DNA of 64,000 bases from Apostichopus japonicus (Eukaryota > Echinodermata > Holothuroidea > Aspidochirotida > Stichopodidae). Of the stretch, positions 1 through 57,300 are shown piece by piece (position 1 is the stretch's first letter; each line of letters starts with the position of its first letter). The stretch is taken from contig NC_092561.1 of NCBI RefSeq assembly GCF_037975245.1, positions 18,831,008-18,895,007 on the forward strand, read 5' to 3'. The notes beneath the pieces were generated by a model. The model ran no database searches. It worked only from the letters and a program-made list of their open reading frames with translations, and was not told where the DNA came from. A program made the position numbers and the translations under genes.

Positions 1-270
1 TTAATTCTTGGACAAAGTGAACTAACTTGCTCTACATTTTGTGAGATGTGCATGTGGTTATGTGGAAAATGAGCATATTATATGACAAGTAATCACAAAG
101 CTACCTAGCTTGCTGGTTTGAATTTGTTTTCAATCACAGTTGAATTTGTTGTCAATTGCAGACAATTAATACAACTTACTTGTAGCTGCTGGTGTACTGA
201 GTGGAATATGATAATATATAACAATGAACAATCAGTACTAACAGTATTTGTGCATGTTGCTTTCCTTCAG

Positions 271-537
271 GATTTGGGCTTTTTAAACTATATGTAGCTG
301 ATCAACTGACCAATCCTGATATCAAAAAACTTACAACTTACTTTAATTTTCCGCCGGCATTGAGTGGAAAATTGGAAGGTGATGGACTGGGATTTGTCAA
401 CAAACTTGTCGATAGAGGTATTATAAAAGAAACTGACATTTCAAGGCTTCTTAAAGCCTTGAACCAATTGAAGCTATGTGGAATACAGGAGGACGTTCGG
501 AGTGAATTCAAGAGACGTATGGAAGTTGCCCCTCAGG
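271..537 (+). CDS. Death effector domain (DED) exon of a DED-TRIM gene
   Basis: The exon follows the acceptor tttccttcag and ends at the donor G|GTAAGT. It starts with two bases of a split codon, has 88 open codons, and ends in phase 1, so an earlier coding exon lies before the window. The peptide reads as most of a six-helix DED: FKLYVADQL (helix 1), KKLTTYFNFP (helix 2), FVNKLVDRGIIKETDISRLL (helices 4-5) and KLCGIQEDVRSEF (last helix). DEDs are homotypic interaction modules of FADD, caspase-8/10 and PEA15. This assignment rests on residue pattern, not a profile search. The exon joins in frame to 3026-3110 and then to the RING exon at 3338, which makes the DED the N-terminal part of a TRIM-like protein. 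The alternative is an independent DED gene that happens to sit upstream. Confidence 0.72.
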
Positions 538-879
538 GTAAGTGATACAATCATAATTCAGTGTTTATTTAAACAGTGCACAATAGAACAAAGGAATGTG
601 TAAACGCTGGGACAACACATCGATTTGGGCTGTCAATGGTCATCTCTTATATAAGTTCAATTCTGCCAATAGAGCTTGGTAGAAACAATACCTGTCTCGT
701 AAACATGAACTCACTCACCAGTATATGGTGCATGAACTTGGGAAGTAGATTACACTTAGTAAGTCACTGGCTGATTTTTTTATTGGCTAGCTATAAGTCA
801 ATGGTCACTTTAGCTCGCTAAAAAAGACCCGTAAATAATCTTACCGAACATATGTAGTATTAGTGGACATGTCATACTT

Positions 880-1640
880 GGGTAGTAGGTGAATGCCTCT
901 TAAAGGGTCGGCTACTATCCTTCGAGCAGTTGCGGTTGGGGTTCAGTGTCATTTGAGGACAAAAGGAGTCAAACCTGAAATCATGAACAAGTTAATTCAA
1001 TAATTATTCTTAAATTGATGAATCATAGACGTCGTAGGTGGGTGCCTCTTATTAAGTTTTTACATGTGTTTGTTCTTGGGAAATGTCAAAGGATATTTGA
1101 GGTCAATAGATGTCAAAATCTGAACTTCGTGTAAACTTGATAAAAGTAAAGCCACAATGAATATGATACTCATTATGTACTTAAAGCTTAGTGAATTTAA
1201 GAACTTTGATGTTCTTTGTAGGGTTCAAGAGTCACTGAAGGAAGTTAACGTCAATATAGGTCAAAGTCTGAAAACCTTGTTCACATAATGACTCAAAAAT
1301 TTTTAGGGTAAGTTGTCAAACTATTTTAGAGGGAATAAGCACAATTTCTGTTTCCTTCATTAGTAACAATTGTTAAAAGGGGTTGGTGGCAGAGCTGTGC
1401 GTTTAGCTCAGTTAGGTAAACGAGAATGTCCATGTGTTTGTAGAGCATTTATGTGACTGTATTCAACATATGAAGACATATTTCTGGATATTGACAACAA
1501 TTTTGCATAAAACTGATATAATGTAAAATTATAATCAGTGAAATACCTGGTTGCTGCCCACAAGTGAGTAATTTCAAGTATAGGTAATAATCTTCCGGTT
1601 CCATTGTATACTTGGACAAATTTAACTCACTTGTTCAACA
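880..1640. repeat. Diverged dispersed repeat, copy 1
   Basis: It resembles 6790-7630: both have spaced GGTCA-rich phrases (for example atgtcaaaatctgaa here, catcaaatctgaaaac there). Both end near a shared phrase, cttggacaaatttaactc (1614-1631 and 7614-7631). No coding capacity or terminal repeats are visible, and the class is unknown. Boundaries are approximate. Confidence 0.4.
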
Positions 1641-1709
1641 TCAGTCCGGTAGTTGAATGGCAAAGTAGCACATGGTAGCTCTTTCTATCATTTGATGGTA
1701 TGGTGGATG

Positions 1710-2590
1710 TTAATTACCAGCTGATTCCACCCTTTTATGCCAGAAAATACAAATGTATAATATATACACTACTGTGTTACAAACAACATTAATGTGAGGA
1801 ATCCATGAGAGTGCAGTAACTAAAATTACACCAAGGCATTTTGTAGAATGGGGAACAGGTATTAAGCAATTCTGAAAAGCGATGCCTATATCGTTAAGAT
1901 TGATTATTGTTTTTGTTATGATGATGAAAAAATTCACAGACAGATTTCTTAGCATTAAGATGAAGCTTGTTAGCAGTAAACCGTGTTATTACTTTACGAA
2001 TTTCAGTGTTAATAATATTTATAAGTGTGTTCAAATATTTTCCTTTGGATAATATATTCGTGTGGTCGGCATACATGGTAAAGTCCAAATTGGTAGTGCA
2101 GTTAGGAAGATTATTAATGTAAATAATAAATAGTAGTGGCCCTAGGATCAAGCCTTGAGGCGCACAACATTTCATTTCATCCAATGGAAAATGGTAGTTA
2201 GACATATAGATACAAACTGAGAACGACCAAATAAGTAGCTTTTAACCAGATTAGGGCAGTTCTACGAGTACCATAGTGAGAAAGCTAGATGTAAGAATAG
2301 AGTGATCTAAGGTATCAAAAGCTTTTGAGAGATTGAGGAAAATACCACACGCTTATTTTTGTTCTCAAAACATTCAATTTATTTGTAAGATGTGTGATGG
2401 CATGTACGGTAGATCAAACTGGTGTTGAAAAATTATGTTGTGTTTGTTTAGGATAGTGTTTTAAAATAGGGTAATATCGTACGTAATAATACCAAACAAT
2501 AAAGCTTTATTTGGCACATTAATAAAGATATTGTCAAGAAGAGTTTCGCTGTCGGGCGTTAAAAGAGTGGGCTTATTTATGAAACCTTGA
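1710..2590 (-). pseudogene. Degenerate LINE reverse transcriptase fragment
   Basis: On the minus strand, pieces of a non-LTR reverse transcriptase can be read in order. LSKAFDTLDHSIL lies near 2300, followed by APQGLILGPLLFIIYINNL and then MYADHTNIL, where the usual YADD catalytic motif has become YADH. A downstream stretch, KCLGVIL plus LSWIPHINVV, matches the region after the palm. Stops and frameshifts interrupt it. The motif set is typical of CR1/L2/Jockey-type LINEs; I cannot choose between these. It is a dead copy in the first visible intron of the DED-TRIM gene. Confidence 0.75.
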
Positions 2591-3025
2591 AAAAAGTAGA
2601 GCTAAGAGTATTAATGAAGTGTTTTAACATCAAAATTGTTAACCGTATACTAATGTACAAATTTATGAGATACAAATTCGTAGCCTATACCAAACAATTA
2701 GTTTTTTAATGTTACTATCCTACTTGGAAGTTGACTAAAACTGTTGTCAGACTTGCATGTGATTTTGTAGCTGTAGGAGTTACATTGATTTGAAGTTATT
2801 TGGGGGTTTGTACGGTGACTGCCTTTTTCAATGATCCTATTCACAAAATCGTTAAAATGACGCATATTATATAAGTGACCAAAACGCTAAAAATTGATTC
2901 ATCATAAACTCTTTTAAGAATTCGACGCTTAAAGTTGTAACCAGTTGTACTGATGTTAAATGAATTTCGTAAATATTTCATTTATATTTAAAAGCTTATT
3001 AATACGTCGATATCTGCTTTCACAG

Positions 3026-3110
3026 ATAGTTGTTATACTCCCAACGTTGCCAACATCAGTTGTGAAGAGAGTCTTTTAGAAGACGGTTTAGAAGAAAGTA
3101 ACTCCATCGC
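3026..3110 (+). CDS. Linker exon of the DED-TRIM gene
   Basis: An 85-bp stretch bounded by a pyrimidine-rich acceptor (ctgctttcacag) and a strong donor (ATCGC|gtaagt). With the single base left by the DED exon it reads 28 codons without a stop, rich in Ser and Glu (for example SCEESLLEDGLEESNSI), and leaves two bases. Those two bases plus the first G of the exon at 3338 form a codon that puts the RING exon in frame, reading on through Thr-Ile-Met. So the phase matches on both sides. The acidic, serine-rich composition fits a flexible linker between the DED and RING. It has no recognised domain, and transcript support cannot be judged from sequence. Confidence 0.62.
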
Positions 3111-3337
3111 GTAAGTTGCGTACATGAATTCATGCCATCGCATTTGAGTAGAATGTCAAGCATTTCATAGTATTTTAATAGTTGTATTGTAATGTACATT
3201 TGTCATTTATTATGTTAAACAAATTCCTACTTGCAAACTGAACTATTTGCATGACATTGACAAACTTCACATAGACCCATTTTACATTTAAGAAGATCGT
3301 TCAATGTTTTGTATTTTTCTTCGGTTTTCATTTACAG

Positions 3338-5462
3338 GACAATTATGGATCTTTCATCGAATTCACAGAATATTGAAGTCCGTTGTTCATACTGTAAAGA
3401 TTATTTTACAGAACCCAAGCGTTTACCATGTTTTCATCGATTTTGTAAGGGATGCTTGGCAAAAGTAGTACAAGTGCACCATGAAAAGCATTTGGAATGT
3501 CCTACATGCTCACACACGTGTAACATACCAGATAAAGGATTGGATGGCTTCAAAACAGACTATCACATGGAAAAGATAGTAGAATTTCAAAAGTTTAAGT
3601 CTTTGTTCATCGCAAAAGCTATCAATGACTGTTTTGGCTGTTCCGAAGAATCTATACCTATGGTTGCTTACTGTTTTAAATGTAAAAACTTTCTATGTGA
3701 CCGATGTTACCAACTTCATCTTACAAACAAGATCATAGATGATCATAAAGAGAAAGTGATATCCGCCAAGGATTGCGCATCAGACGGTTTCGATTTGCAA
3801 AAATATTTATGTCTAAAGGAACCTGAGAAGTGTGATGTACACGTTGAGTTAACAGTCGATCTTTGCTGCTCGACTTGCAATAACATCCCAGTGTGTTTGA
3901 CATGCGCTACTGTTGGTCATGCAGAACATGATACTTGTGGTATGAAGTCTCTCGCTGCAAAAGAGGAGAAAAAGTTCATTTCAGTGAAAGAAGATCTGGA
4001 CAAATGTAAAGAAACGTACGGAGAATTGATTGAACGAATTGAAAAAGCCAATTCCAGTATACAGAAAATTGATAATCCAGCTGCTCAAAATGTTAAGGAC
4101 CAGAACGAAAGAGAAAGGATTGCAATAATAGATAAGACTAAGGAAATGAAAGACTGCCTAAAGAAAAGTAAAGATAAGTTGGATCAAAATTTGCAAAAGC
4201 AAGAGGCGTCGAATACAGAAAACAGGGATAAAGAAATTCGACAAATCAATGAAAAATACACAAACACACTAGTTGAGATTCGCAAAGACGACAAAGAAGA
4301 AAGAGACAAGTTGGACAAAAATCACGACTTTGCCCTACAAAAATTATCAAACGAGCAAAAACAAATAGAGAGGAAGATGGAGAAACAAAAGAACGATGCA
4401 AAGCAGGAACAGGAAGAGAAAGTAGCCAAAGTTTCGAAAATATCGGAAGCTGTTAATCAATTAGCAGTCAGAATGAATAATTATAACGCAACAAGGGAAA
4501 GCATTCGTCACGCTGACGATGACAGGATTACCATACAATGCCTGCCTGAGTTACATATCGCCTGCAGGCGTTTGACTGATGATTTTGAAAAGAAATCCGA
4601 AGAACTTGCCACGATACTGAGCACCAAATTTGTCATCACAATTGATAAAATGAAAGGTACCAAGCAAAAGATTCAAAGTATAACTAGTTGCGGAGAAAAC
4701 CGAATAGCGATCACGGGTATTGAATCAAAAAATACCTCATTTCTTGCTCTTATAGATTCCGAAGGAAAGCAAAGAAAATTCATCAAAACAACGGAACAAA
4801 ATGCCCAACCAAGATGTTCCATAGCCATTGTTTCAGATTCAAAGGTCGTTACTGTTTCAAAGTTTAATTTGATAAACATTTTTAATACTCAGGATTGGTC
4901 AAGATTGTTACATCAGGACATTTCGAAAATCATTTCATTTTGGTCAAACAACTGGCGTTTATCGTGTGTAGCCACAGATCGAGCCACTAAGAAAATATAT
5001 GTGGGTGCAAGCAACTTGAACATCTATGTTTTTAACGAGAAACTCGGCCACGTGCAAACTCTAGATTTGGCAAAGATCGTAAAATCCATTGCAGAAATTC
5101 TTATTCTTGAAAGCGATCTCCTGGTCTGTGATGAAAGTGAAAAAAGTGCCTACATAGTAACGAGGCAAGACAAAATATGGGTTCGCAAACATGAAATGGA
5201 AAAGATTGGAAGTATCGAGTATTGTCCAATAAGTGCCTGCACTGACAAAGATGGGTTTATTTTCATGTTGTGGTCCGCCAAGAAACAAAGAAAAGTTGTT
5301 GATTGCCGGTTTGCAAAATATAGTCCAGATGGCCGAACTGTAATCACAACAGGACCTCTGGACAAACGGTCAGAGTGTGTAACTATAATGAAGCAATCTG
5401 AAGGAAAAGAATGTCTGGTAGCTGCAACAACAAAAATCAACAATATGTTTTGTTATACACTA
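3338..5462 (+). CDS. TRIM-like RING/B-box/coiled-coil/beta-propeller exon
   Basis: Predicted RING E3 ubiquitin ligase of the TRIM-like class. The acceptor is tttacag|GACAATT, just before ATG at 3345. Counting from that Met, a C3HC4 RING uses C14, C17, C29, H31, C34, C37, C52 and C55. B-box 1 starts near C96 (CFGC...YCFKC...LCDRC). B-box 2 is CDVHVEL...CCSTCNNIPVCLTC near 163-200. A highly charged Lys/Glu coiled coil covers about 205-395. The last 270 residues contain repeated beta-strand phrases such as CTDKDGFIFML and KYSPDGRT, resembling NHL/WD-type propellers of invertebrate TRIMs. The donor CTA|GTAAGT at 5462 sits at the same YTL position as in the paralog at 28995. If the intron is retained, translation stops at 5489 (706-715 aa). 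The upstream frame continues into the DED exons. An internal start at 3345 would give a plain TRIM protein. Confidence 0.85.
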
Positions 5463-5702
5463 GTAAGTATGCTACAACATTTCTTTTAAATACATTGTCA
5501 TTTTCGGATTGATAGTTTTTTAATTACAAACTTATTTCCAGAAGGCCACATACACGGCACATCAAAGTGTTTGGCCAAGGGAATTTTTATTCTGCATAAC
5601 TTGATCAGAAGTGTATCTGTGGCATTCATTAACATGTTCATTTCGGCAATCATATGACTCATTATGAATACCACCCTTATCTCTACAGTTTGTTGGCCGA
5701 CA

Positions 5703-5790: not shown

Positions 5791-5901
5791 CCTCGGTCAA
5801 CTAATCCTCACACCAAGGATGCCCGCAGCAAAAACCCAGTGGAGAAGGCCATCTATCAATCAAAGTACAACAGACCAGATAACAAAGCCACTTCTGCATT
5901 G
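5791..5901 (+). CDS. Candidate tail exon of the DED-TRIM gene
   Basis: A 111-bp open segment between the acceptor ctcgctag and the donor TTG|gtaaac, phase 0 at both ends. It is therefore compatible with the donor at 5462 (phase 0) and the next candidate at 16793 (phase 0). It reads 37 polar residues with phrases such as KDARSKNPVEKAIYQSKYN and no known domain. Its composition looks coding, unlike the flanks. Its place in this gene is inferred from phase and order only. Confidence 0.45.
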
Positions 5902-7670
5902 GTAAACACAAAATCGATTTATATTTTCCGTTGATTGCGCCGCCTTAGAAGAACATTTTCTTGATTCAGTTGATCCTCTCAACCAACTCATTGGCGTTTT
6001 ATAAACTTTATCGGTTCGGTTATTTGTCAAATATCTTTTTATCCCTAAAAACGTCAACTGACATTACCTTTTCATTTAATTAATTTCAAGATCTAGGTGA
6101 AAGGATACACGTTTACTGTGGTAGGAGGATGTATGTTAAACCTGACTATATATGTTAGGTAGGATATCCATCAAAAGAGAAAACTATAAAGAAGATAGCT
6201 CTATCGACAGCTCTTTTGAAATTTAAATGAAATTTATATTCAATCATTTACTGTTCGTTGATTGTTGAATAACGTATTGTTGTCTTTTTGTTGCAAAATA
6301 GCGAATATCGGACTTAGGTGCTTCAACGTCTGGTTATTCCTCTACCACAAAAACTATGCAGCTCGGTACAACACAGACAGGTTTTGTAGTTATTTCAATC
6401 TCTTCAATAAGTACAGGGCAATGTATCATCCTGATTCTGCTGTCTCCTCCAACATAGATAGATTGATAGATAGATAGAAAACTTTATTGTCCATTTCAGA
6501 AAAAAACAATACGTTAAGTTCAATATGCAATGTAGCATGTTATAGTTCTTTTCTGATCATGTCTTTTTATGATTCTTTCACCTTTGGTCAATACCTCAAA
6601 TATCTCCTTTAGTACACAACAGAGGCTTCTGGGTATGAATTCTATGGCTTGGCTTGTAGTACTCTTTTATTCCTCGCCAGAGGCAAAATGAATCTATCAT
6701 ATGCGATGGTGTGTGTGTGTGTGCGTGCGCGCATGTGTGCGTATGTGACGCTTGTTAACACGGTAACTAAAAAAGTTAATGGTGGGTTAACTTCATATTT
6801 GTTATGTGCATCTCTCTCATTAAATACAAGGAGCAGTTTGTTTGCTGCGAAGTTCAATGGTCATGTTGGGTCACAGATGTCAAAGTATGAACACTTTGCG
6901 AACACGATCAATGAAAAGGTTCATCTTTGTTGAACTTCATATATGGTATATAGATTCAGCTTGTTTAGTACAAGAACCCTATTGAAATTGGTGGAGATCG
7001 AAGGTCATTTCGGTCAACATTTAAGTGAAAATCTTTCTTTATTTTGATACGTAGTATGTACATCCAGCTTGGTGAGTGCAAAATCATATTATAATTGGTA
7101 GAGGTGAAAGGTCACATGATGTCAACAGGCATCAAATCTGAAAACTTGTTAAACATGATAACTCCAAGTTAAAGCTACAATTAATCTAGTTGGGTCAAAT
7201 TCAGTTCAGTTAAGTTCTGTGAGGGGGCTCTATAGGTCTTCAACGAAACATACCTGGCATCCAGGTGAATAGAATCTGCTTCAGAATTCATACTCTTGCT
7301 TTAAAAATTCTCTTAAACCTTCTATCATGCCCCCCCCCCCCCTCTCTGAGCCTCAATTAAGGTGTCAACAGGTTATCTCAAAGAAGCACAACCTGGCTCT
7401 CGGGTTCAAAAGGTGAAAAACATGACAAATTTCTCAAAACTATTCCACAACAATGTTATGTAAGTCTCAACAAGTATTAAAGCGATTGCTAGCTTAAAAT
7501 TAGGAAAATGTTCTTGGTTTAGACATCTATCCTTAAAAAATCATTTTCAGTGAATGATTTGTTTCATGCCTGCAAGTGATTGCTACAAACCTTTACTGGT
7601 TCTCACTTCATTCTTGGACAAATTTAACTCTAAATTAGTCAGATAGATATTTTGTATTTTGAGGAAAAAA
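5902..7670 (+). other. Intron sequence left of the LTR element
   Basis: AT-rich sequence with a GT/GC microsatellite (6710-6750), a (GATA)n run (6460-6477), a C-run (7330-7342) and the second copy of the dispersed repeat (6790-7630). I see no gene in it. Confidence 0.4.
6790..7630. repeat. Diverged dispersed repeat, copy 2
   Basis: A counterpart of 880-1640 with similar GGTCA-spaced phrases and the same end phrase (cttggacaaatttaactc). It lies immediately left of the LTR retrotransposon insertion. No ORF or terminal repeat is seen. Confidence 0.4.
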
Positions 7671-9691: not shown

Positions 9692-12600
9692 TTAACCATA
9701 TAATGTTTGCAACATCCTGCCTGGATTGCCTGTAATGTTCAATCCCTTTTCATGGAGAAAATTCATTATTTCCTCTGTGTTGGAATATTTTCCTACATTC
9801 CACCAAAAATCATGACTCTTAAAGCCTGTTGGAAAACATGGTGTCTGATAAGTGACCAGAACCTGTAATTCACCCAATTTGTATCGAGCACGTTGGACTT
9901 TCATGTCTCCTTGTGGAGCATTTGCAAAAACTTTCTTTTGCCTTAATATGCTATCTTTCATGGAAGGATATGGAAGTGCTAATCCTTCATTATGTGCTCT
10001 ATTCTCTAGAAAGGATGCAACATTCATTGGCTTAGTGGTCATAAGACACATGACGTGATCTGAAGTTACCCCTGGCAAAATGTTACCAAACTCATCATGA
10101 AACTCAATATGTGCATCTTGCATGACATTAACATTTTCTGCATTAGAAGTGTTACTACTCAAAACATTTCTCATTCGAGCAACCTTTTCACTTGATGAAC
10201 CCTTTGTTTTCAAGACATTCCGCAATTTCTGAATGTTGGTGATATTCTTAGTTTCAGAAGATGCTCTTACAAAACATGGTTTAAGCCTGTTATAATTGAA
10301 TACATCACTAAGAATTTCTCCTTTGAGAGTGGCCAACAAATAATGAGTCCTATCCAAAACTTGATGGATCACTAGTGGTCCACACCATTCTGCAGCAATT
10401 TTGCGAGAGTTCGCAGTCAAGGAGGAAGACGTTGGCTTATATAGATACACTAATTGACCCGTTGAATAAATTGCACCTTTGTCCAGTTTTGCACTTATCT
10501 TAACATTTTGTGCATCTTGTTGCTTCTTTTGTAAGACTAACATTACCCTAGACAAATGATCAAATCGTTTCTTTAACAATGCGGCATATTCTCCATGAGA
10601 TTGTGATAATCCTGCCATTGGATTGAATGATAAATTTGTAAGATTTGGCGGCTTACGTCCAAATGCAAGTTCAAATGGGCTATAGCTACCTAACTGAGGA
10701 GAGGAAAATGTGTTATGCATAGGCTGATGTTGGGACAAATCGTACCCAATCCGTACCAAACTGATTTAAGTTCACTTTGAGGAAATTTGAAAGAGTTTGA
10801 ATGTGTCTTTCAACCTGTAAGCTTCCATGATTGCTTACACTGATGAACTTTTGTTCAATGCCTAAAGCTTTACTTAAGAGCTCCACTAATTTTCCTGTAA
10901 GAGAAGCTGCCGCATCACTTATAATACAAGACGGTGGACCAAAGGTTGTGACTACCCTCTGCAATAATGCTTCACATATTGTTTCAGCATCAAGAGTCTT
11001 AAGAGAAACACATACAACAAATCTAGTGATCTCATCACAAACAACCATCAAATGTTTAAATCCTGTAGCCGTTATGGGCATAGTCTTGAAATCCAGACTA
11101 AGTCTGTCAAAAGGACGATAAGAATCAGGAATGCGAGCATGATATTGTCTCAATTTGTCCGGTTTCTTACGGAATTCTTGACAACGGAGACATGCCTGAA
11201 TATAATTACTGATGCGTTGAAACATATTGCGCAGATAGAAATGCTGTCTAATGGTCAAATATGTACGCATTACACCCTGATGATTACTTAACAAGTCATC
11301 ATGATATCGAGATATTATCTGTTCTACCATAGTCTCAGGTACGACTAACTGAAGAGTCATCTTAGCATCATTAGTCTCATGCAAAAATATCCTGAATAAC
11401 AAACTATTACATAACAAATAATCCTCTGCTTGAGAACGAACAGTTCTAGCATGCTTAGCATTACTTGGAATAATGTCATGTGCAAGAAAATCATAAATTG
11501 GTTTGTAGTAAGGACAAGTTTGTTGTTGAATTTGCAACTCTTTTACATTAAATGGCAGATCATAGTTCTTGATCAGCTTTCCTTGAATTGCCTTCATGAC
11601 TTTATTCAATTCCTTTTGTTTTGGAATGTGTCCTGTAACCAAATGATCAATGTTTGTTATGACTGGCTTTGGCTGAGAAAATAATTCTGGTGGTGGTTCT
11701 CTGATTACCTCTGGCACTCTATGTCTACTCTGATCCACTAATCTTGGCTCTGTAGGTTGAGAAACACTTGTAAAATTTGGCACAACTAACATGTCAGGAC
11801 TATATGTATGTCTATTTTCACTCGGCATAGAAATAGTAGGCCTTTGAATATATGTTTCTCTCTTATCAGTAGAAATTACTGGTGTAGTCGTCTTTTGTGA
11901 CTCAGATTGTGGTCTCTGCGTAACATGATCACTAGAATGTGTTGCCTTGGGAACGGATGTCCTTTCAACTCTATTTGTCGATACTTTGGCTGGGGAATCC
12001 TGCTTGGACTCCTTAGTGACTTTATTTGGAAATAAATCTGGAACTTTGACTCCCATTGACCTTGCCATTGACCTTGTCATGATTGGATTAAATGTCTCCT
12101 TAGGTGGAGTTGAAAAATCCTCATAAGAACTGACCTCTTGAGCAACCTGATCTATTTCAGAGTGAAATTCCTGTGGTGCTCTAGACAAATAATCTGCCAA
12201 AACCAATTCTGAGCCTTTCTTATAACCAACCTGAAATGTATATTCTGACAACTTGAAGAGAAGCTTACGTAAGCGTGAAGTTGCTGGTTCTTGTTTCGAT
12301 TTAAACAATTCAACAATGGCCGAGTGATCAACATATGCCTCAAATTCTACATTTTGCAATAAATGTTTGAATGCTGTCACATTAATAAATAGACCCATCA
12401 TTTCTAATTCAGTTACACTATACCTCTGACATGCTGGTGGTAATATCTTAGAGTAATATGCAATAATATTCTCTTTGCCATTAACTCTTTGTGTCAAGTA
12501 TGATCCTGTTGCTACTGTGCGAGAAGGATGCAGACAAAATTTTTGGTTACCTATGTTCCTTAGTAGAATCTTTGTTCTACCTTTATGCATTTTCACTAAC

Positions 12601-13232
12601 ATTCGTGAAGGACACATACGAGATATTAGAGGAAACGGTTTAATAACCACATCTGCATTTCGTGCATATAGTGGAAGACGTCCCTGTACAGTAATGTATC
12701 TTTGCTGACCTGGGTAAATAACAAATCTCTGCACTGGCCTAAGGAAAACTTTGGCTTGTTTAATTCTAAAACAATTTGTGGTAAAGTCCAAAGATCCATT
12801 CAATTCCTTCAGAGTTTGACTACCTAATATTAAATCAATACCTGTCAGGTTTGCAGCAATTAAAGCAGAAAGCTGAAATTCATGACCTTGAATTTTGACC
12901 TGAAATGTTATCGTGCTATACGCATGAATAAACTGACCATTACCCAACCTTAGGTTTACTACATCAACTGAGACTGGTTGTATAGAGGATAAATACTTTG
13001 AATTTTGCACTGTAGAAGAAGAAATGATAGAGCGTGTCGCTCCACTATCAAACAACAATGAAATTCCTTTACCATCATGTAAAGTACCTCTTACAAAATT
13101 ACGTGTGTCCAGTTGAATATCCACATTACGGTCGTTCCCTGTATATCTAGAACTAGGAATATTACTATTCTTCCAAATATTATTTGCTTTACGTTTCGAT
13201 CTTCCCTTACTTGGTACTTTGTCTGGAGTCAC
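9692..13232 (-). pseudogene. pol remnant: protease, RNase H, integrase (no RT)
   Basis: A long frame (10713-13232, up to 839 codons; its first codon is GTG and the frame is open upstream into gag) is followed by a second frame (9692-10759). The aspartic protease active site LLFDSGATRSIIS is near the start. A short pre-RT linker leads directly into RNase H (GSYLTQ...ENIIAYYSK...VDHSAIVEL...LADYLSR). The fingers, palm and catalytic YxDD of reverse transcriptase are missing without a break in frame, at about 12510. Integrase follows, with an HHCC zinc finger (H..NHQGV...CLRCQ), catalytic Asp in LSLDFKT and IISDAA, and Glu in QVERHIQTL. A frameshift at about 10720 moves the integrase C-terminus (SYSPFELAFGRKPP and a later GPLVIHQVLDRTHYLL) into the second frame. 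The order PR-RH-INT fits Ty3/Gypsy. Confidence 0.88.
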
Positions 13233-13261
13233 TGTATGATGAGTGCAATCATAAGTGCTCC

Positions 13262-14211
13262 CTAATGAAAATTCTGTGTTGGTACTTTCTTTACATTAGC
13301 CTCTATTTCATGGCTTAGGCGAATTTGGCAATATTGTGCAAAATGACCTCGATTTTGACAGTAGTAACATGTGACTGAAGGATTAAAATACGGTAACCTT
13401 CTCCTGTTATTATTCTGACCTGTCCTAGGACCACGAGAATCACGAGAACTATATCTTTGCCTCATATCTTTTGGATTGTCTTGCGATTCTGACCTACGTG
13501 ACTGATCAAACTTGGTCTCTAATTCCTGAATTTTGGTACACAACTCGTGTATCTCAGAAGATGCAGAAATAGTAGGAGTCTGAACAGAAGACGCTTTGTC
13601 GTGCATTGCCTTAAATAGTTCGGAAGAAGCTGTGGGTTGACTTTGGATTTGTAAGTCAAAATAGCATTGCACTTTCATGACCAAATCTGCAATTGTTGCT
13701 TGTGGTGATGCAGACATTAACACTGCTGAGCGGCATTGCAAAGGCAGGGTCGAGATGAATTTATCTCTAATTTGGTCCTCGCCATAGCTTAATTGTGCTG
13801 CAGCTTTTGAAATTTTGGCCAATGAGCTTGAGCTGTTTCACCTGGCGTATAGCTTAATGCTTGAAATGCCTGTGATTTAGCGTAGGAAGAAGTCCCTGGA
13901 CTGAAACGAGCAAGGAATTGCTTGCGCATATCAGCAATAGTTGAAAAACTTTTGTTTTCAATCCAGAGTCTGGCTTGGCCTTTAAGTGTTCGCTTAAATA
14001 TGCGACATATTTCATTAAATTCTTCCGCTACAGCCTCAGGGGTGGTTTGGGACGGCAATTTATGCAACTCTAAATAATCTTCAAATCCCAAATAATGAGC
14101 TTCGGCTAAATCTGCATCAATTACATCGCCCTGAAATCGTGATGGCAAAAAATCAGTGGGCCTATGTTTCTGCATAACAGAGGTCGAAGTTTCCTGTTTA
14201 CTGACGGACAT
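13262..14211 (-). pseudogene. gag with zinc knuckle, split by a frameshift
   Basis: Two overlapping frames make one gag. The first, 13789-14211, starts with ATG at 14211 and reads a capsid-like region (RLWIENKSFSTIADMRKQFL). The second, 13262-13822, continues it and ends in a CCHC zinc knuckle, CYYCQNRGHFAQYC, after an Arg-rich stretch. The switch lies near 13800-13820 and looks like a one-base indel. The gag end overlaps the pol frame by about 35 nt, with pol in the -1 frame, the layout used for programmed -1 frameshifting. I did not find a textbook slippery heptamer. Confidence 0.85.
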
Positions 14212-14851
14212 TATGCCGCATACAATCCTAGGCTAGTTATGAGTATACAACATGAGCCTATACTTAATTGAACACACTATCGACCGTTATTAAATACAAA
14301 TCACAAATATGCAATACATGGACACGATTAAAATAACTTATCGTTACACTCTGATCTCAAATAGGGGTTGGGATACAAATTGGCATGATTTCACTCACCC
14401 TTAAGTTTAACTAAGAACTGGTAGTGGAACTGCAAACGATGATTGAAGTCCCTCGGCTAGTAGTAATAGTAGCGGCAGGTAGTAGCAGGTAGGCCTACAT
14501 CTCGTAAGAACTTCAGATTCGTTCGCCGTTAACATCGGGTAGAGTCTAGGCTTAGATCGCGAAAATGTTCAGTTCTGATGTTTAGAGCTGTAGTATTCTA
14601 CGTACTAGTTGCGCGAATGTTCAAACGCGAACTGCATGCTGGGTTGATTAACGTTGGTGTACAGATCAGTGGTTCCGGTGTACAGACTTAGGCTAGTATA
14701 GGCCGTCTTCCCTCGTAGAGTGTTTCCGTTAGGCTAGGTCGTGAACATACGTTGTGTTCGTCGTTAGGTCTTCGGGCCAAAAAAAAATCTCTGTTCGTTA
14801 TTGATCGTAACGAACGAAAGTTGTGAAAAGTTCCGTTTTGTTCCTGAAGAA
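14212..14851 (-). other. 5' leader of the LTR element
   Basis: About 640 bp between the primer-binding site and the gag start. It is non-coding, somewhat richer in GC than the flanks, and likely holds packaging sequence. No other feature is visible. Confidence 0.5.
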
Positions 14852-26769: not shown

Positions 26770-28995
26770 ATGGACACAACCGGCTTTCTGCGAGATATTC
26801 AGCCAAGTTTCTTCCAGTGTCCAATTTGTATGCAACACTACCAGAAACCAAAACTATTACCATGTCTACATCGATATTGCGGCAATTGTTTGCAAAAAGT
26901 TCTGCATGATCAGCGAGAACGGTTTAGCTGCCGTTTGTGTAATTACGTTTGTCTAATACCTAGCAACGGTGTGGAAGGGTTTAAGACAGACACTCATATG
27001 GAGTTGATGGTTATTTTTGCCGACATACAAAACGCCTTTAGCAGCGGAGAAACAAGAGAGTGCGTTAGTTGCTCGTACGATTTCAAAGTAGCTGCGTACT
27101 GCTTCAAATGTCATGGGTACTTGTGCTTCAAGTGTTCCACTGCTCACCCCAGTGGAGACACGACCGCCGACCATCTTCATCACATGTTGGCGCGAAACAC
27201 GGTTGACCCAGAGAACCTCACCCTGGATGAATTAGCTTCCCTTACGGAGGCCCCAAGATGCCATGTGCTGAATCACGGCAACAGATTCGCACAGCAATGT
27301 TGTTCTACGTGTGCCAATCTTCCTGTGTGCGTAGATTGCATTCACAATGACCATCAGACCCACAGCCTTGACAGCGTCACGTTGGTATCCAAGTCGGAAA
27401 GAGAACGGATGAACAACAAAATTGAAGTTCTAAGAAGGGAAATGAGGTATTTGGATAACCTAAAGGGAAGGATTAATAACGTGCAAAGACAATTGGATGC
27501 AAATGTTACCGAAAAGAGAAGTAAAATACGCTCGTTGTATGACAGGGAGTCAAGCGAAATCGAGATACGGTTGAGGGAGAACAGCGAAGAGTTAGACCGC
27601 TCTCTTGACCTCATAAACAACGAAGAGAATGAGGTACTTCGCGGTGTACACCAGGAGAGAAATGAAGAGATGTTTGCTATATCAGAGAAGTATCAACGTA
27701 TCATTGACTCGATCCTGATAGAAAACGAAAACAAAAGACAAAGGTTAAAGGTCAAGCATCTCAAAAGAGAAACCAATATCACCTCTAAAGAGCAAACATT
27801 AGATAAAGTCTATCAAAGCTTGAACTATACCATAGCAAAGGAACAGAGTGAAAATCTTGAAGAAATTGAAAGGATCTTGGAACATTCTAACAATACTCTC
27901 AGCCGATTACAGAATCTCGATACGACAGTGTTCAGTATCATGGGTATGAGAGACGAATGGAAAGATGTTTTGTATCTTCCTGATATCAGTGTGGCAAGCG
28001 AACCGTTGGTAAAGGACGTCATTAAAGAATTCCCACAGTTGGAAGAGCTTTCTGATTTTCCGGTCGGGGAGCTAAAGCCAGTTTATATTGATCATGGAAC
28101 GATCACTGAAGACTCTGTGGTCGATATCGAGGGCATTGATGCAAGAGGATGGCAGATCAACGGGATGACAAGTGTCGGTGAAGGCAGTATCGTTGTTACT
28201 GGTAGGGTTTCGGACGAGGCTTCACATATTACTGTAATCAACGCAAAAGGTAAAATGTTACGGCAACCGGAAAGGAAAAAGAAAACTCGACGCTCAATGT
28301 ACTCGCCATTTCGTTACTGCGCATCGTTGACGGAATCAAAGATTGCAACAACTTGCCAATGTTCATCGAACATATTAGCATTGTTTGATGCTCGCAACGG
28401 TTCGTCCAGCAGGAAGGATATCACTGAAGTAACAACTAAGGAAGGATCATCGACGTCATGGCACGTCTCCTGCATGGCAACCAGTTCCGCGAAGAAACAG
28501 ATCTTGGTCGGTAGTTTTGACAGGCGAGATGTCCATGTATTTACTGATCAGTTAAAACACAGCCATACATTATTATTACCAGACGTGGTACGGTGGCCAA
28601 GAGACATGGCGGTTTACCACGGTAATCTTCTCGTGTGCGACGACGAAGGTGGTAGAGCATGCCTCGTCACCATGGCAACACCTCAGGCTGACGAGGACGC
28701 GGTAGTGGAATGTAGCCTTGTCTGTGAGCTACCTAAACCAGGGCTTCAGAATAGTGACTGTAGACCCATATGCATTTGTACAGACACAAGTGGGTTTATA
28801 TATATGTTATGGGATGTGACAATTGCTGGACAGTTAAAGTCTGTACTTGTACAGTACAGCCAAGATGGCCGCCAACTGTTAACAAAAAGACCAGTCGATG
28901 GCAACGCGAGATCACTAGCGACTATGGAGACTAAAAAGGGAGAAAAACTTCTGATTGCTACGGAGAGGACAGGGAAATTGTACTCCTACGGTTTG
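26770..28995 (+). CDS. TRIM-like RING/B-box protein, paralog
   Basis: Predicted RING E3 ubiquitin ligase. The acceptor tgttctcttcccag ends at 26760, nine bases before ATG at 26770, so an upstream exon exists. A C3HC4 RING uses C17, C20, C32, H34, C37, C40, C54 and C57. B-box 1 is CVSCSYDF...YCFKCHGYLCFKC. B-box 2 is CHVLNHG...CCSTCANLPVCVDC. A charged coiled coil runs from about 205 to 395, then a beta-propeller-like C-terminus with CTDTSGFIYMLWD and QYSQDGRQLLT. Domain order and many residues match 3338-5462, so the two are tandem paralogs 23 kb apart. A donor TTG|GTTAGT at 28995 lies at the same YGL/YTL position. With retention the frame would stop at 29025. The frame is intact (742 aa to the donor). 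Confidence 0.88.
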
Positions 28996-29021
28996 GTTAG
29001 TATATACACATCATTCATAAC

Positions 29022-29388
29022 TTAAAGGCATTGAACACTCGCCCCAATCCGCGAGCCGCCCTCAAAAAAAGTTAAGTTTCCGTTGCTTGCAAGTGAAGTT
29101 TTCTTCTTGTCGCTACAAAATGCAGACAGTAATAAAACGTGATACCTTGTTATCTTTTATCTGAACCTGAGATGTCCATTGCTGCTATGTACACTGTGTT
29201 ATGGGTATTGACCGTAGCTACATGTATTGACTGTATAATAGTGTCTCATTACCGACGGTATCAAGCTGTGTGTGTATTTTCTGGGATCGATGGTGGTGTT
29301 CATCACACGTTTGTTACACCTCATTCGAAACTAGATCAGAATGCCGGCATCAGACGTTTCTTTGTACGCGAGTCTTCACTCCCTTTAA
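29022..29388 (+). mobile_element. TTAA-flanked MITE, copy A
   Basis: A 367-bp element bounded by TTAA. The left end is TTAAAGGCATTGAACACTCG, and the right end is its approximate inverse (GCGAGTCTTCACTCCCTTTAA). It shares the interior with 33674-34045, 37968-38523 and 39941-40314. It inserted 27 bp after the splice donor of the second TRIM gene. The TTAA target suggests a piggyBac-like mobiliser; no transposase is present. Confidence 0.8.
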
Positions 29389-40900: not shown

Positions 40901-43900
40901 AGAAGGTAAATGTGTTAATATTCCATTCCTCATTTCCTTCAGCTTTTAGTACCTTTACCATAAATAAATGTTGTTTTTATTTTCTTTTTTTTGTATTTTC
41001 CCTTTTACTTTTTTAAAAGGCTAAAGCCAATGAGGAAGCAGTAGTCCTTTGTCTGACCAGAGCAGCAGTAATGAAGCTCGTTAAAAATGACCTTGATGGA
41101 ACAAAGGTAAGATTAATTTATCATTCAACCCAATGTCCAGTCACTTCATAGGGAGAGTTGGTCAGTAGATTGAACTCACACTGGTCCATCTACTCCTGAT
41201 TTTTGCCCTCCCCTCTCTCCCCTTCTCTTCCCCCTCCCTCCCCTCCTGTTGAGGAACATAAACAAGAATATATATAAAAAATTGAACTTTATTTTGATAG
41301 ATTCGAAAAATTGGCCTGATTTGGTTGACATCTACTCAGTTTTAGTAGATTAGTCTGTAACTGTACTGTGTCCTTTTCTTCATTGCAGAATTTATGAATG
41401 TAAATTGGAGCTACTCTTTGATATGTTTTTGTTTTTCTTGTCTCTTTTCTGTTCCTCTATGGATTCAGAAATTGATAGAAGAAGCCCAAGCCAAATTGGA
41501 TGACATGGATGGGGTTTCTACGGTGCACAGTAGGTTCTACGACGTGTCAAGCAGCTACTTCAAGGTCATGGGGGACCATGCATCGTACTACAGGGACGCA
41601 CTGAGATTCCTTGGCTGTGTCAAACTGGAAGACATCGCAGGTATGTGTATTAAACATTATGAACCTGAGATGTTACCTATATACATTGTTACTGTACCTA
41701 TATAGATATCCCAGGTATGTGTATTAAACCTTATGAACCTGAGATGTTACCTATATACGTTGTTACTGTACCTATATAGATAACCCAGGTATGTGTAGTA
41801 AACCTTATGAACCTGAGATGTTACCTATGTACATTGTTACTGTACCTATATAGATATCCCAGGTATGTGTATTAAACCTTATGAACCTGAGATGTTACCT
41901 ATGTACATTGTTACTGTACCTATATAGATAACCCAGGTATGTGTATTAAACCTGGGGGGCTCTGTTAGGTAATAAAACATGAACTGGAGATGTTACCAGG
42001 GATGTGCCCGCACTGGGCGGTCCAGCTCAGCACTAAAAGTTAACCTACCGCCCAGTGCTGTCTTAAAAATAGTGAATCCCGCATTTTCATCTAAAATCCC
42101 GACATTCCTAACAAAATATTCAACATAAATTGGGCCTAGCCTATGCCAAAATCAGTCACGCATGCAAGAAACATTACTTACGGCTCTCAATCGGTCCCTT
42201 GTAAAATCTCTTTGAAACAAACTAATAACTTTTATCAGGTACGTAATATATTTCACTAAAAAAATTTTTAAAAAAATGTAAATTGTTAGCAAAACTAGTG
42301 TATGTGCTTAAAAAGCTACACAAGTGCCAGCATTTGACATCTGAGCACCTTCAAAAATTTGAAAAATTTCTCAAAGGGGAGGGGGACACTTTAGACCCCT
42401 TCCCCAGGACGGAAATCAGTATACCCGGCACTCAGGAAATCCTGGACACATCCCTGTGTTACCTATATCGTTACCTATGTAATTGATTAGTTATATTACC
42501 TATATTAGTGGAATGGTACCTATGTTTGTACAATACAGAGAAACATCCATACAGTTTAATACCAGATTATCATAGAAATCTTACCCTTTTTTTTCTTCTT
42601 TTTTTTTCGATGCAGAACAGAAAGAAAGAGCTTTTAATCTTTCTCTGGCAGCTCTCTTAGGTGAAGGAGTGTATAACTTTGGAGAATTAGTAAGTAGCTC
42701 CATTTACCTTGTGATTCATTCCTCGGTTGCCTTAAGCCATTGTCGTGTTGTCCGAGAGGTGGTCAAGACGGTGGGCAGGGGAAGTGGGGTGGGGAGGGGC
42801 AGGGAGAAGGGGTGGTCAGAGGCACTTCGGTTAGTATACGGTAGTGGATTAATATTATCTTGAAAGCACCTTTTTGTATGTTTGGAAAAGTTGTGGTACT
42901 ACTTGGCTAAGAACTCATGACAAACTCTCATTAAAAGAGAATGTTTTCATGATTTTGTTCCAGAAAGATCATTAATTTGGAAACTTACTGGTATCTTTGT
43001 TTTTTTTAATGTTTTCTTCATTTCTTTCTTTCTTTCTTGTGTTTGATAGAAATTTCAAGAGAAACGTTCCTACCTAACAAACTTGTTAGAATTGTCTTGA
43101 ATTATGGTGACTTCCTTTATACAGAATATTATGAAGTTCGCCGGTGCAGTTTTGGCTTATTATTGTTGATAATATTTACATATTTCTTTTATGAAATAAA
43201 AAGAAGGTGACATATGTTGGAGAATCAAATGAAATTCATACTTGCTTCATTAAACCTTCACTTAGTGGAAATATCAATGAAGGTTTCTTACTTTGGCCAT
43301 CATGGGCTTACTTTCAGTAAAACTCGGTACATTTGGTCAAATCGTGAACAAAGTTTCCTCCCCCCCCCCCCAATTGCTGATTGCAAAGAATCGATCACTG
43401 ACCTCTGACAATTAGTGGACCTGTGTCATTATCATATATATATTATCATTTGAATACATTTTTGGGGTAATTTTTTGTTTTCCACCTTCAAACAGCTTGC
43501 CCATCCAATTCTCTCTTCGCTCAAAGAGACCGATAACAGTTGGCTGGTGGAGCTCCTCTTCGCTTTTAACAGCGGCAACCTCGACCAGTTTGAGAAGATG
43601 ATGACAACTTGGAAACAACAGGTAAGAAAAAAGGTTTAAAGCCTCTGTCATATTGAATAAGGTTTTTGAAGAAAAAAAGAGGGAAAAAGTACCCTTTGTG
43701 AATCTTGGATATAAGTAAGAGTGAGTTTGAAATGATTTCTGACAGAGATCTGCAAATTCTCATTGGGTGTGTACAGTCGGTAGCCAACAGTAAGCACTGT
43801 AGAAATTATAACAAACCTCAGCACCAATTTGAAATCGATGCCATTCTTGTCAACTGCCTGATCCAGCTTCTTCTTCTCACCCTCCAGTCTTACCCTCCCC

Positions 43901-54239: not shown

Positions 54240-54345
54240 AACCGCCACTATGGTTCATTATAACAGGTCCCTCACACGCCACTACGGATCATTATAACAG
54301 GTCCCTCACACGCCACTTTGGATCATTACAACAGGTCCCTCACAC
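54240..54345 (-). repeat. 34-bp tandem repeat spanning the SMPD2 stop codon
   Basis: On the minus strand GTGTGAGGGACCTGTT recurs every 34 bp: the TGA is at 54340-54342 (the true stop), 54306-54308 and 54272-54274. Three units cover the stop codon and the first part of the 3' untranslated region. Confidence 0.88.
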
Positions 54346-57300
54346 ATCTTCTGCGATGATCGGCTCTGTCTTTAAATCGTACGTAGGGAACCGGCTTTTG
54401 GCTTTCAATTCTTCTGCCCGCCTGAGGAAATGTTCCCGTCGCAAGTAGATGCTGTCCTCCACGTTCCGCAGCGTGTTGACCGTGCCAAAGACGAAGATGA
54501 GCCTGTAGGCCGAATAGAACCAGCCCATGGACACTAGAATGCTGGCCATCACACCTCGGAGGGTACTGGTATCCCAGAAGGCACTGATGAAAATCATCAG
54601 GAGAAGAAAGAAGCCCACCAAAAACGCTGCAATGTTAAACTTCTTGGACGCGTGGCCCTGGATGCGAGCCGTATGTATCTTCTGATAGAGGTCGTTGAGC
54701 ACATTGATTTTACTCTCTAAATCTTCATCTTTGGATAGCTCTGTTGTTAAAGAAGAAATATAACGTTTTGAGAAATGAGAATTGTGATAAACAATGAAAA
54801 TCGAGAAATGAGAATTGTGATAAACAATGAAAATCGTATAAAAAGAATTTTTTGTTAAAAATGGAAACAAATGTACAGTAAATAGATGATGTCAAACTTA
54901 AGATACTCGATCATGTCTTCAGCCTTGTATGTGATAGAACAATACATCTGTGATATCTCTCAAATGGAATAAGGCTTTTCATAGCTGTTGATAGCTGTTG
55001 ATAGTTGTTGATCGTTGTTGATCGTTGTTGATTGTTGTTGATGACAGTTATCTCTATCACACAATGACATGTTGGGGCTTTCTCTCGTTGAAAGCCGATT
55101 TGATAAAAATCTTCCATTTACTTCTCTCAATTGGAATGACTTTACATAGTTGATGATAATTGTTGATAGTTGTTGATTGTTGTTGATAGTTGTTGATGGT
55201 TGTTGATCATTTCCTTTACAATGCAATACAGCCAGTTAATGATAAATATGTGAAAACAACATTTTTTGATATTTATTGAAATATTTGGAAAGCAGATGTC
55301 ATACGGAACCCTGGGGCCGATCTAGGATTTCAAAAGGAGACATGTGTGGCCCCAGGTCTGTTTCTTGGAATAAATTAAAAATTTCAGAGTGTAACAATTT
55401 TTTGCATAATGATGGTCGGGATTTTTGTCTACGTTAATTTCCGTACCAACCGGCCAAAGAAAGTAGCTGTCGACAGTGGTCCGAGCCAGACTCATAAAGG
55501 ACATCAAAAATTCATTGTGGTTCTATAAAGACCATTCGCAATGAGTGCCGAAAACCTTTACAGATCAAGGGATCCATGCACTTTTTACTATAAAGGCCAG
55601 GTCTTCAAAATCTGGCTACTTACTGGCTCAAATGCAATGGATTTCGTTGTTCGCCAGTAGCAAAAAAATAGGAGGGGGGGGGAAGGGGGTGCCTTCATTC
55701 CGTCAGTAGAAGCATATTGCTTAATTGTATGAATTTATGAAATTCAGAGAAAATGACAGTAGGAAATTTGATATTTTTAGAAAGTAGATTTCTTTTATAC
55801 AGGCACAGGGCACTTTTCAGCAGCCTTGGAGAAGGCTAACATTTTATTAAATTAAGGCTCGAAGTTAATATCTCTTTGGAAATTCACCGACAGCAATCAT
55901 CAATAAGAGATCATCAATAAGAGTGTTTCACAGACATCTCACCTTCCAATCTCTCTTTCTCCGTCTGTTCTCTGAGCTCAAAGAACGCTTCGTAACCGTT
56001 GTGGTCCGAGTAATTCATGTCCGTCCCCGGGATCTTCCTACTCAGCGCGACCCTGGCCTCCGTACAGTTCACCGTCCTGTTCCTGCCGGCTTTGTACAAT
56101 ATGAAATCGATCCGGATGCCGTTCGGGAAGATAGGATAGTGGAGATGGCCCAGGTCCGTGTGAGAGTTCTCTCTGGTCTCTATCGTGTTGCCCATCGCCT
56201 CCTGTCGAGAGAAACGGACAGAAATACTCGTTTAAATGCAATTTTGTCGTTATTGAGATCACCCCTCGGCTCTATATCGTGTTAGAGGTGTGCATGTGGG
56301 TTGTCGACTTTGAATGAATAACAAGTTTCGGTTTCGGATAGTATTAGCAGGGACATAAGTATTACAATGTTGTGTAAAAGTAAGTTGGCCTGACGTTTCG
56401 ATCCTAGCAGGATCTTCTTTGAACAAAGGCTTTTTTTTTTTTTTTTTTTTTTTTTTAGGATCAAAACGTCAGGCCAACTTACTTTTACACATTCTCCTAC
56501 ACAGGCTCTCTAGTGGATAAGCAGTTTGCTATCACTTTTATTTTATTTTGATTTTACTACAATGTTGACGGAAATAGGGAAGGGCAAAAGGGGAGAGATT
56601 GAATGGGAAATTACAGTGGTCTTATCAGATGTCAATTCCCGCCCACAACCCCCCTCCCCCCTAAACACCTGCCACCGAAATACTGCAGACCTCTTAAATA
56701 CATGCAGGATTAAAAAACACATGTAAGCAAAATGGAGGAAAGCTTACAGATAAGATGTCAAACTTTTCGTCTTTGTTAAGCCTCGTCTCCCAGGAATCGA
56801 GAACGTCGCTGTTCTTGTGGATGACTTTGAAGGACAAGGAATGCGGCTCGGAGTTGAGGTCGCCCATCACCAGGACCAGGTCAGCATCTGCCGACGTCTG
56901 GCGGGCGTATTCGCTGAGCTCGTAGCTCTGTGTGATTCGGTGACTAGAATACTGGTCTTTGGCTGGTTGATGGGATGGTGCGTACATAGCGTGCATCTAC
57001 AGGGAAAGGAGAGGAATTGATTCAGAAAGATGGCTATGGTATATAGGAATATATCCCACTTAGTGGATATAGCCAAATCCATGGATATATTCTACTTACT
57101 GTAGTTGGTATTCTTATTGCTTACTCTAGCTTCCACACAAAGAATATATCCGAATTGGTGGTTACTGTATATTCAAATTCATGGATATATTCTATTTAGT
57201 TGTTATTCTTATTGCTTAAACTCTAGCTTCCACACATTGAATATATCCGAATTGGTGGTTATATTCAAATTCATGGATATATTCTATTTAGTTGGTATTC

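Follow-up and report, generated by a model that had tools for sequence, protein, structure and literature searches.

A DED-like domain exon ahead of a RING-bearing, NHL-type TRIM in Apostichopus japonicus: a putative death-fold ligase gene and its paralogs

Among the described systems closest to the gene considered here, the TRIM-NHL proteins (TRIM2, TRIM3, TRIM71, Brat and Thin) make up TRIM class C-VII, and pyrin (MEFV, TRIM20) carries an N-terminal PYD, has no RING, bears a B30.2 domain and is tied to inflammasome-type assemblies. In animals TRADD-N domains are also fused to TRIM, usually beside a Death-like domain (DEDD2-type), as PMC8195603 reports, and Pyrin is among the domains named in the legends of PMC3137616. 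The locus analyzed in this work lies in a 64,000-nucleotide stretch of the sea cucumber genome (the window; positions 18,831,008 to 18,895,007 of contig NC_092561.1, here C1, assembly GCF_037975245.1), where an original prediction, made from the letters alone, proposed that a death effector domain (DED) is spliced in frame to a TRIM-like E3 ligase at 271-5462. The best explanation of this window copy (T1), to which we assign a probability of about 0.8, is a single gene that joins a DED-like domain through a short acidic linker to a TRIM-NHL E3 ligase (RING, B-box 1, B-box 2, coiled coil and NHL propeller), and that belongs to a small family comprising T1 and copies A, B and C on one chromosome and copy D on another contig.

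The three exons originally proposed are borne out by their GT-AG borders, matching phases and open frame. The acceptors are TTTCCTTCAG before 271, CTTTCACAG before 3026 and CATTTACAG before 3338, and the donor is GTAAGT after 537, after 3110 and after 5462; this hexamer occurs five times on the plus strand of 1-5600, and three of the five occurrences are these donors. When the exons are joined as predicted, the frame has no stop from exon 1 until 5487-5489, and the linker exon is open in one of its three frames, namely the one that joins. The extent of the gene was drawn too short, however, although the exons and their order hold. The domain exon starts in phase 1 without an in-frame ATG upstream of the domain, and the model therefore lacks one or more 5' exons, probably located outside the window. 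A GTAAGT at about -2419 was dismissed as the end of a first exon because its phase is wrong; a candidate for the first exon, MLIHI, lies about 1.1 kb upstream. More 3' exons are likely as well, since a donor closes exon 3 and a likely further exon, conserved in the paralogs, follows at 5818-5901. Within intron 1, at 2000-2700 on the minus strand, a non-LTR (long terminal repeat) reverse-transcriptase fossil with stops was read by eye.

The family was delineated by searching the genome (671,581,487 bases, 35 contigs). With the RING/B-box part as query, the best 150 of 358 candidates were scored and consist of T1, copies A, B, C and D at 78-81%, and 145 others at 46% or less. Copies A, B and C are on C1, as is T1, and D is on contig C13. 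All three copies on C1 repeat the exon order, strand, splice signals and phases of T1, and the domain exon lies upstream of the RING part, in the same orientation, at a distance of 1.5 kb in A, 1.6 kb in B, 2.9 kb in C and 2.8 kb in T1. Matches to the linker exon occur at five places in the genome, which are the five loci of this TRIM subfamily (the match at D is weak, E 0.05). In T1, A, B and C the linker can be read without a stop in the frame that joins. In D it contains a stop, and no match to the domain exon was found within 5.6 kb 5' of that linker. Since layout and linker recur in the paralogs, a chance neighbourhood of domain and TRIM was dismissed; D was also considered as a retrocopy, which was rejected because linker and RING exon have not been joined in it and retain splice signals.

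The codon at which a TRIM without the domain would start is ATG in T1, C and D and ATA in A and B, where the next methionine is residue 75, beyond the RING (residues 14-55). The TRIM frame is open in T1, A and C (in A over 749 codons) and is frameshifted in B past 259 TRIM codons. With ATA at the start site, the next methionine beyond the RING and the frame nevertheless open, the RING of A must be read from an exon further 5', and linker and domain are the only in-frame ones found there. Short of RNA, the strongest argument for the fusion is the contrast between A (no ATG, intact linker) and D (ATG, linker with a stop). This contrast bears directly on the alternative of two transcription units, in which the death-fold exon is the last one of a gene upstream or has another splice partner, and translation of the TRIM begins at ATG 3345, so that 3026-3110 would be an exon of the 5' untranslated region. 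Such an arrangement would accommodate the good context of that ATG, the ATGs retained after a near-ATG acceptor in D and in a paralogous control TRIM in the window, and the fact that the unspliced frame of exon 1 stops after two codons (543-545); it does not sit well with the absence of AATAAA or ATTAAA from 545-2124, with linkers of T1, A, B and C that stay open in the frame required for joining, with the lack of an ATG in A and B while the A RING frame is open, or with the finding that among the five linkers only that of D, the locus at which no domain was found, is broken. Two units are thus considered very unlikely. The single-gene reading has other points to its disadvantage besides the start codons of T1 and the control: copies A to C are mutual duplicates, and the ratio of nonsynonymous to synonymous substitution rates is close to what relaxed or diversifying sequence would give, for the domain and the main exon alike, and does not point to strong purifying selection.

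Comparison of T1 with copy C (C1:19008601-19016129) shows that divergence is distributed unevenly along the gene. Identity is 72.7% in the domain exon, 80% upstream of it and 56.5% in the middle of intron 1, as against 93-95% in the intron stretches that flank exons and 83-85% in the coiled-coil and propeller parts. This mosaic suggests conversion or exchange at the level of exons.

The downstream part of the gene follows the order of a TRIM protein, with a RING, B-boxes recognized by their zinc pattern and a coiled coil read by eye. The RING, whose C3HC4 pattern is complete, is the sole Pfam call in T1; a Pfam scan with E up to 1 returned no NHL match for the propeller. A structural model of the propeller, computed from an alignment of two sequences (T1 and the control TRIM), nonetheless has 24 strands, a predicted local distance difference test score (pLDDT) of 80.5 and a predicted template modelling score of 0.83, and its top structural matches include the NHL domains of Thin, Brat, TRIM3, TRIM2 and TRIM71; WD40 propellers rank high, too. 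The C-terminus is accordingly described as NHL-like on the strength of the model. Of the series RING, two B-boxes, coiled coil and propeller in the original prediction, the RING is thus confirmed by Pfam and the propeller is modelled as NHL-like, while the B-boxes stand as patterns and the coiled coil as a visual reading. The splicing of the exons and the ligase activity of the product are both predicted from the sequence.

Table 1. Features of the T1 locus and the control TRIM (window coordinates).
Feature	Position	Strand	Remarks
Death-fold (DED-like) domain exon	271..537	+	267 nt, symmetric phase 1-1
Intron 1	538..3025	+	contains a non-LTR reverse-transcriptase fossil (minus strand, interrupted by stops)
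Linker exon, Ser/Glu-rich	3026..3110	+	phase 1 to 2
Main TRIM exon	3338..5462	+	open frame, RING to propeller
RING (C3HC4)	3384..3509	+	residues 14-55 of the frame from ATG 3345; Pfam and PDB match
B-box1-like zinc pattern	3630..3746	+	residues 96-134; Cys/His pattern alone
B-box2-like zinc pattern	3831..3929	+	residues 163-195; Cys/His pattern alone
Charged region, presumed coiled coil	3942..4610	+	by-eye reading of the sequence
NHL-type beta-propeller (modelled)	4626..5462	+	24 strands in model, enough for six blades
Next coding exon (likely)	5818..5901	+	28 codons, phase 0; matched in 4 of 4 paralogs, 64-86% identity
Candidate last exon with stop	6302..6457	+	phase 0; unmatched in the retrieved paralog sequence, which stops short
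Control TRIM, paralogous	26770..29022	+	27% identity; no DED exon match in window; acceptor directly 5' of ATG

Elsewhere in the window, reading by eye suggested long frames of a gag-pol LTR retroelement (9692-14232, minus strand), PSMD13-like exons (about 41000-41700, plus strand) and exons resembling neutral sphingomyelinase, SMPD2-like (54300-57000, minus strand).

The identity of the first domain is less straightforward. Scanned alone, the T1 translation of 271-537 does not match the Pfam DED family (PF01335), so the Pfam check proposed originally failed for this copy; a PDB sequence search with it gave no match at E up to 10, and neither a search of PDB with the family profile nor an NCBIfam search gave anything useful. 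Against home-made profiles the T1 domain scores 7.2 bits for DED, a value reached by 4 shuffled sequences, compared with 46 for the Death domain (DD), 416 for PYD and 1231 for CARD (per profile, 2592 to 2834 of 3000 shuffles were scored, 2834 for DED and 2592 for DD). A single-sequence model (pLDDT 64) has weak structural matches headed by the DEDs of PEA-15, FADD, caspase-8 and FLIPs. The charge triad E/D-RxDL is a DED motif that is not kept in every DED; in T1 the sixth helix reads LKLCGI where RxDL is expected, and the motif is absent.

Relatives of the exon are numerous: with 150 of 198 candidates scored, at least 87 matches have E under 0.001, T1 included. All 30 domain exons that were aligned start in phase 1, and a clear phase-1 donor is found at the expected end in 19. 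In an unrooted tree T1, A, B, C and four exons on contig C16 form a clade that is split from the rest with support of 100/96, with the caveat that the branch leading to C is long and that the program gave a warning about long branches that meet. For the eight members of this clade, profile-profile comparison with context gives 57-89 for DED, 2.4 for DD, 0.6 for CARD and 0.3 for PYD. (The reference sequences were typed by hand, PEA-15 alone having been checked, and were supplemented with eight Pfam-positive DEDs of the genome.) The wider family is indecisive, and leaves room for the view that the first domain is not a DED but belongs with the Death domains or forms a death-fold class of its own: DD (92.6) is about level with the genome's own DEDs (94.0) and exceeds the typed DED set (25.5) in the other 22 members, DD outscores typed DEDs by 89 to 18 in the whole 30-member alignment without context, and among the 30 members scanned against Pfam with E up to 1, Death has the better best E (6.5e-5, 10/30) than DED (2e-4, 16/30), with DUF2095 matched in 11/30. 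Because the T1 clade itself favours DED, as does the smaller number of shuffles that reach its score, this view is considered unlikely, if a genuine contender. The domain is described here as a DED-like death-fold domain. At 10.2-11.1 Mb, C16 also carries a dense array of Pfam-positive DED exons that are distinct from the T1 exon family.

The genes in which related exons occur suggest partners for the domain. Two of the four C16 relatives were read far enough downstream, and both are followed by a TIR exon: at C16:1185616 (L012+L046+L051; domain 72% identical to that of T1) it lies ~6.4 kb on, with a Pfam TIR_2 match of E 3.1e-7, and at C16:1141165 (L014+L052; 68% identical) ~4.3 kb on, with E 1.6e-11. 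A phase-1 acceptor directly precedes each TIR exon (picked from 4 acceptor-like sites in the former and 3 in the latter), so that these are likely DED-TIR genes with matching phases; a PDB search with the TIR exon gave nothing useful. More distant relatives precede NACHT exons. By-eye reading of 27 loci (L012-L038) revealed a NACHT-type P-loop downstream of the domain exon in seven, whose exons are 38-47% identical to the T1 domain, and three of the six frames tested passed the Pfam NACHT cut-off. A genome search for NACHT (106 of 487 candidates scored) placed none of the 106 on C1; on contig C12 at least seven domain exons lie 2.1-6.6 kb 5' of, and in the same orientation as, a NACHT match, in a comparison of 73 of the 150 domain matches with 26 of the 106 NACHT matches, these seven being themselves weak domain matches (E 0.13 to 0.54). 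With close relatives before TIR exons and more distant ones before NACHT exons, the T1-type exon looks like a phase 1-1 cassette of immune genes.

Because TIR and NACHT genes carry sequence relatives of the domain, NLR/TIR proteins are preferred as partners over FADD/caspase-8-type DED chains, although the preference is a tentative one, somewhat short of an even chance. The original prediction had the ligase join FADD/caspase-8 assemblies directly. The score of the T1 clade as DED and the DEDs of PEA-15, FADD, caspase-8 and FLIPs at the head of the structural matches would be in keeping with a real fusion recruited to such chains; with no RxDL in T1, no PDB sequence match, nearest non-TRIM relatives that lead into TIR exons at the two of four loci read far enough, and more distant ones that lead into NACHT, direct joining is not supported and is judged distinctly unlikely. 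In the mechanism envisaged instead, with the same reserve, the death-fold exon would be a cassette common to NACHT and TIR genes, and like-with-like death-fold contacts would recruit the ligase, dimerized by its coiled coil, to assemblies nucleated by NACHT or TIR proteins; there the NHL propeller would select substrate or RNA, and ubiquitin would be deposited on the NLR/TIR signal or would end it. T1 and C keep the RING ATG in good context, and a shorter TRIM without the DED may also arise from them, as it could not from A. More tentatively still, the pooled phase 1-1 death-fold exons before NACHT sensors, TIR proteins and TRIM-NHL ligases may represent one assembly code, in which the DED-TRIMs would act as built-in ligases of NLR/TIR signalosomes and exon-level exchange would re-tune the sensors they join. 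If the proposed gene and its role are real, a RING-bearing TRIM would be aimed at immune assemblies by its own death-fold domain in a genome rich in NACHT, and a single domain exon would clearly be common to sensor, TIR and ligase genes; ubiquitin coupling to NLR signalling would become testable in the sea cucumber lineage.

With respect to known systems, T1 resembles the TRIM-NHL proteins in its RING, whose best PDB matches are TRIM2, TRIM56 and TRIM3, and in its propeller, and differs from them in having a death-fold domain before the RING and in encoding RING to propeller in one exon; the Pfam scan of T1 returned no filamin match. The TRADD-N-TRIM fusions (PMC8195603) likewise join a death-related adaptor domain to a TRIM E3, but there TRADD-N is the named partner; no TRADD-N was found in Pfam scans of the T1 pieces other than the linker. 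In the NACHT genes of the same genome, a homologous death-fold exon that likewise starts in phase 1 is followed by NACHT where T1 has linker and RING. The claim that no standard TRIM class has this layout overlooked the TRADD-N fusions and also pyrin, a death-fold TRIM without a RING; what remains of it is that a DED-like domain with a complete RING TRIM and an NHL-like propeller was not found in the open-licence literature searched, which is no proof of its absence from print. Death-fold domains joined to TRIM are thus already known from pyrin, and TRADD-N domains joined to TRIM likewise; what appears to be new here is a DED-like domain before a full RING TRIM with an NHL-like propeller. T1 shares with pyrin an N-terminal death-fold domain on a TRIM protein, but its domain is DED-like rather than a PYD, its RING is present and its C-terminus is NHL-like rather than B30.2, so that, if the reading given here is true, it would be an invertebrate, RING-containing counterpart of pyrin.
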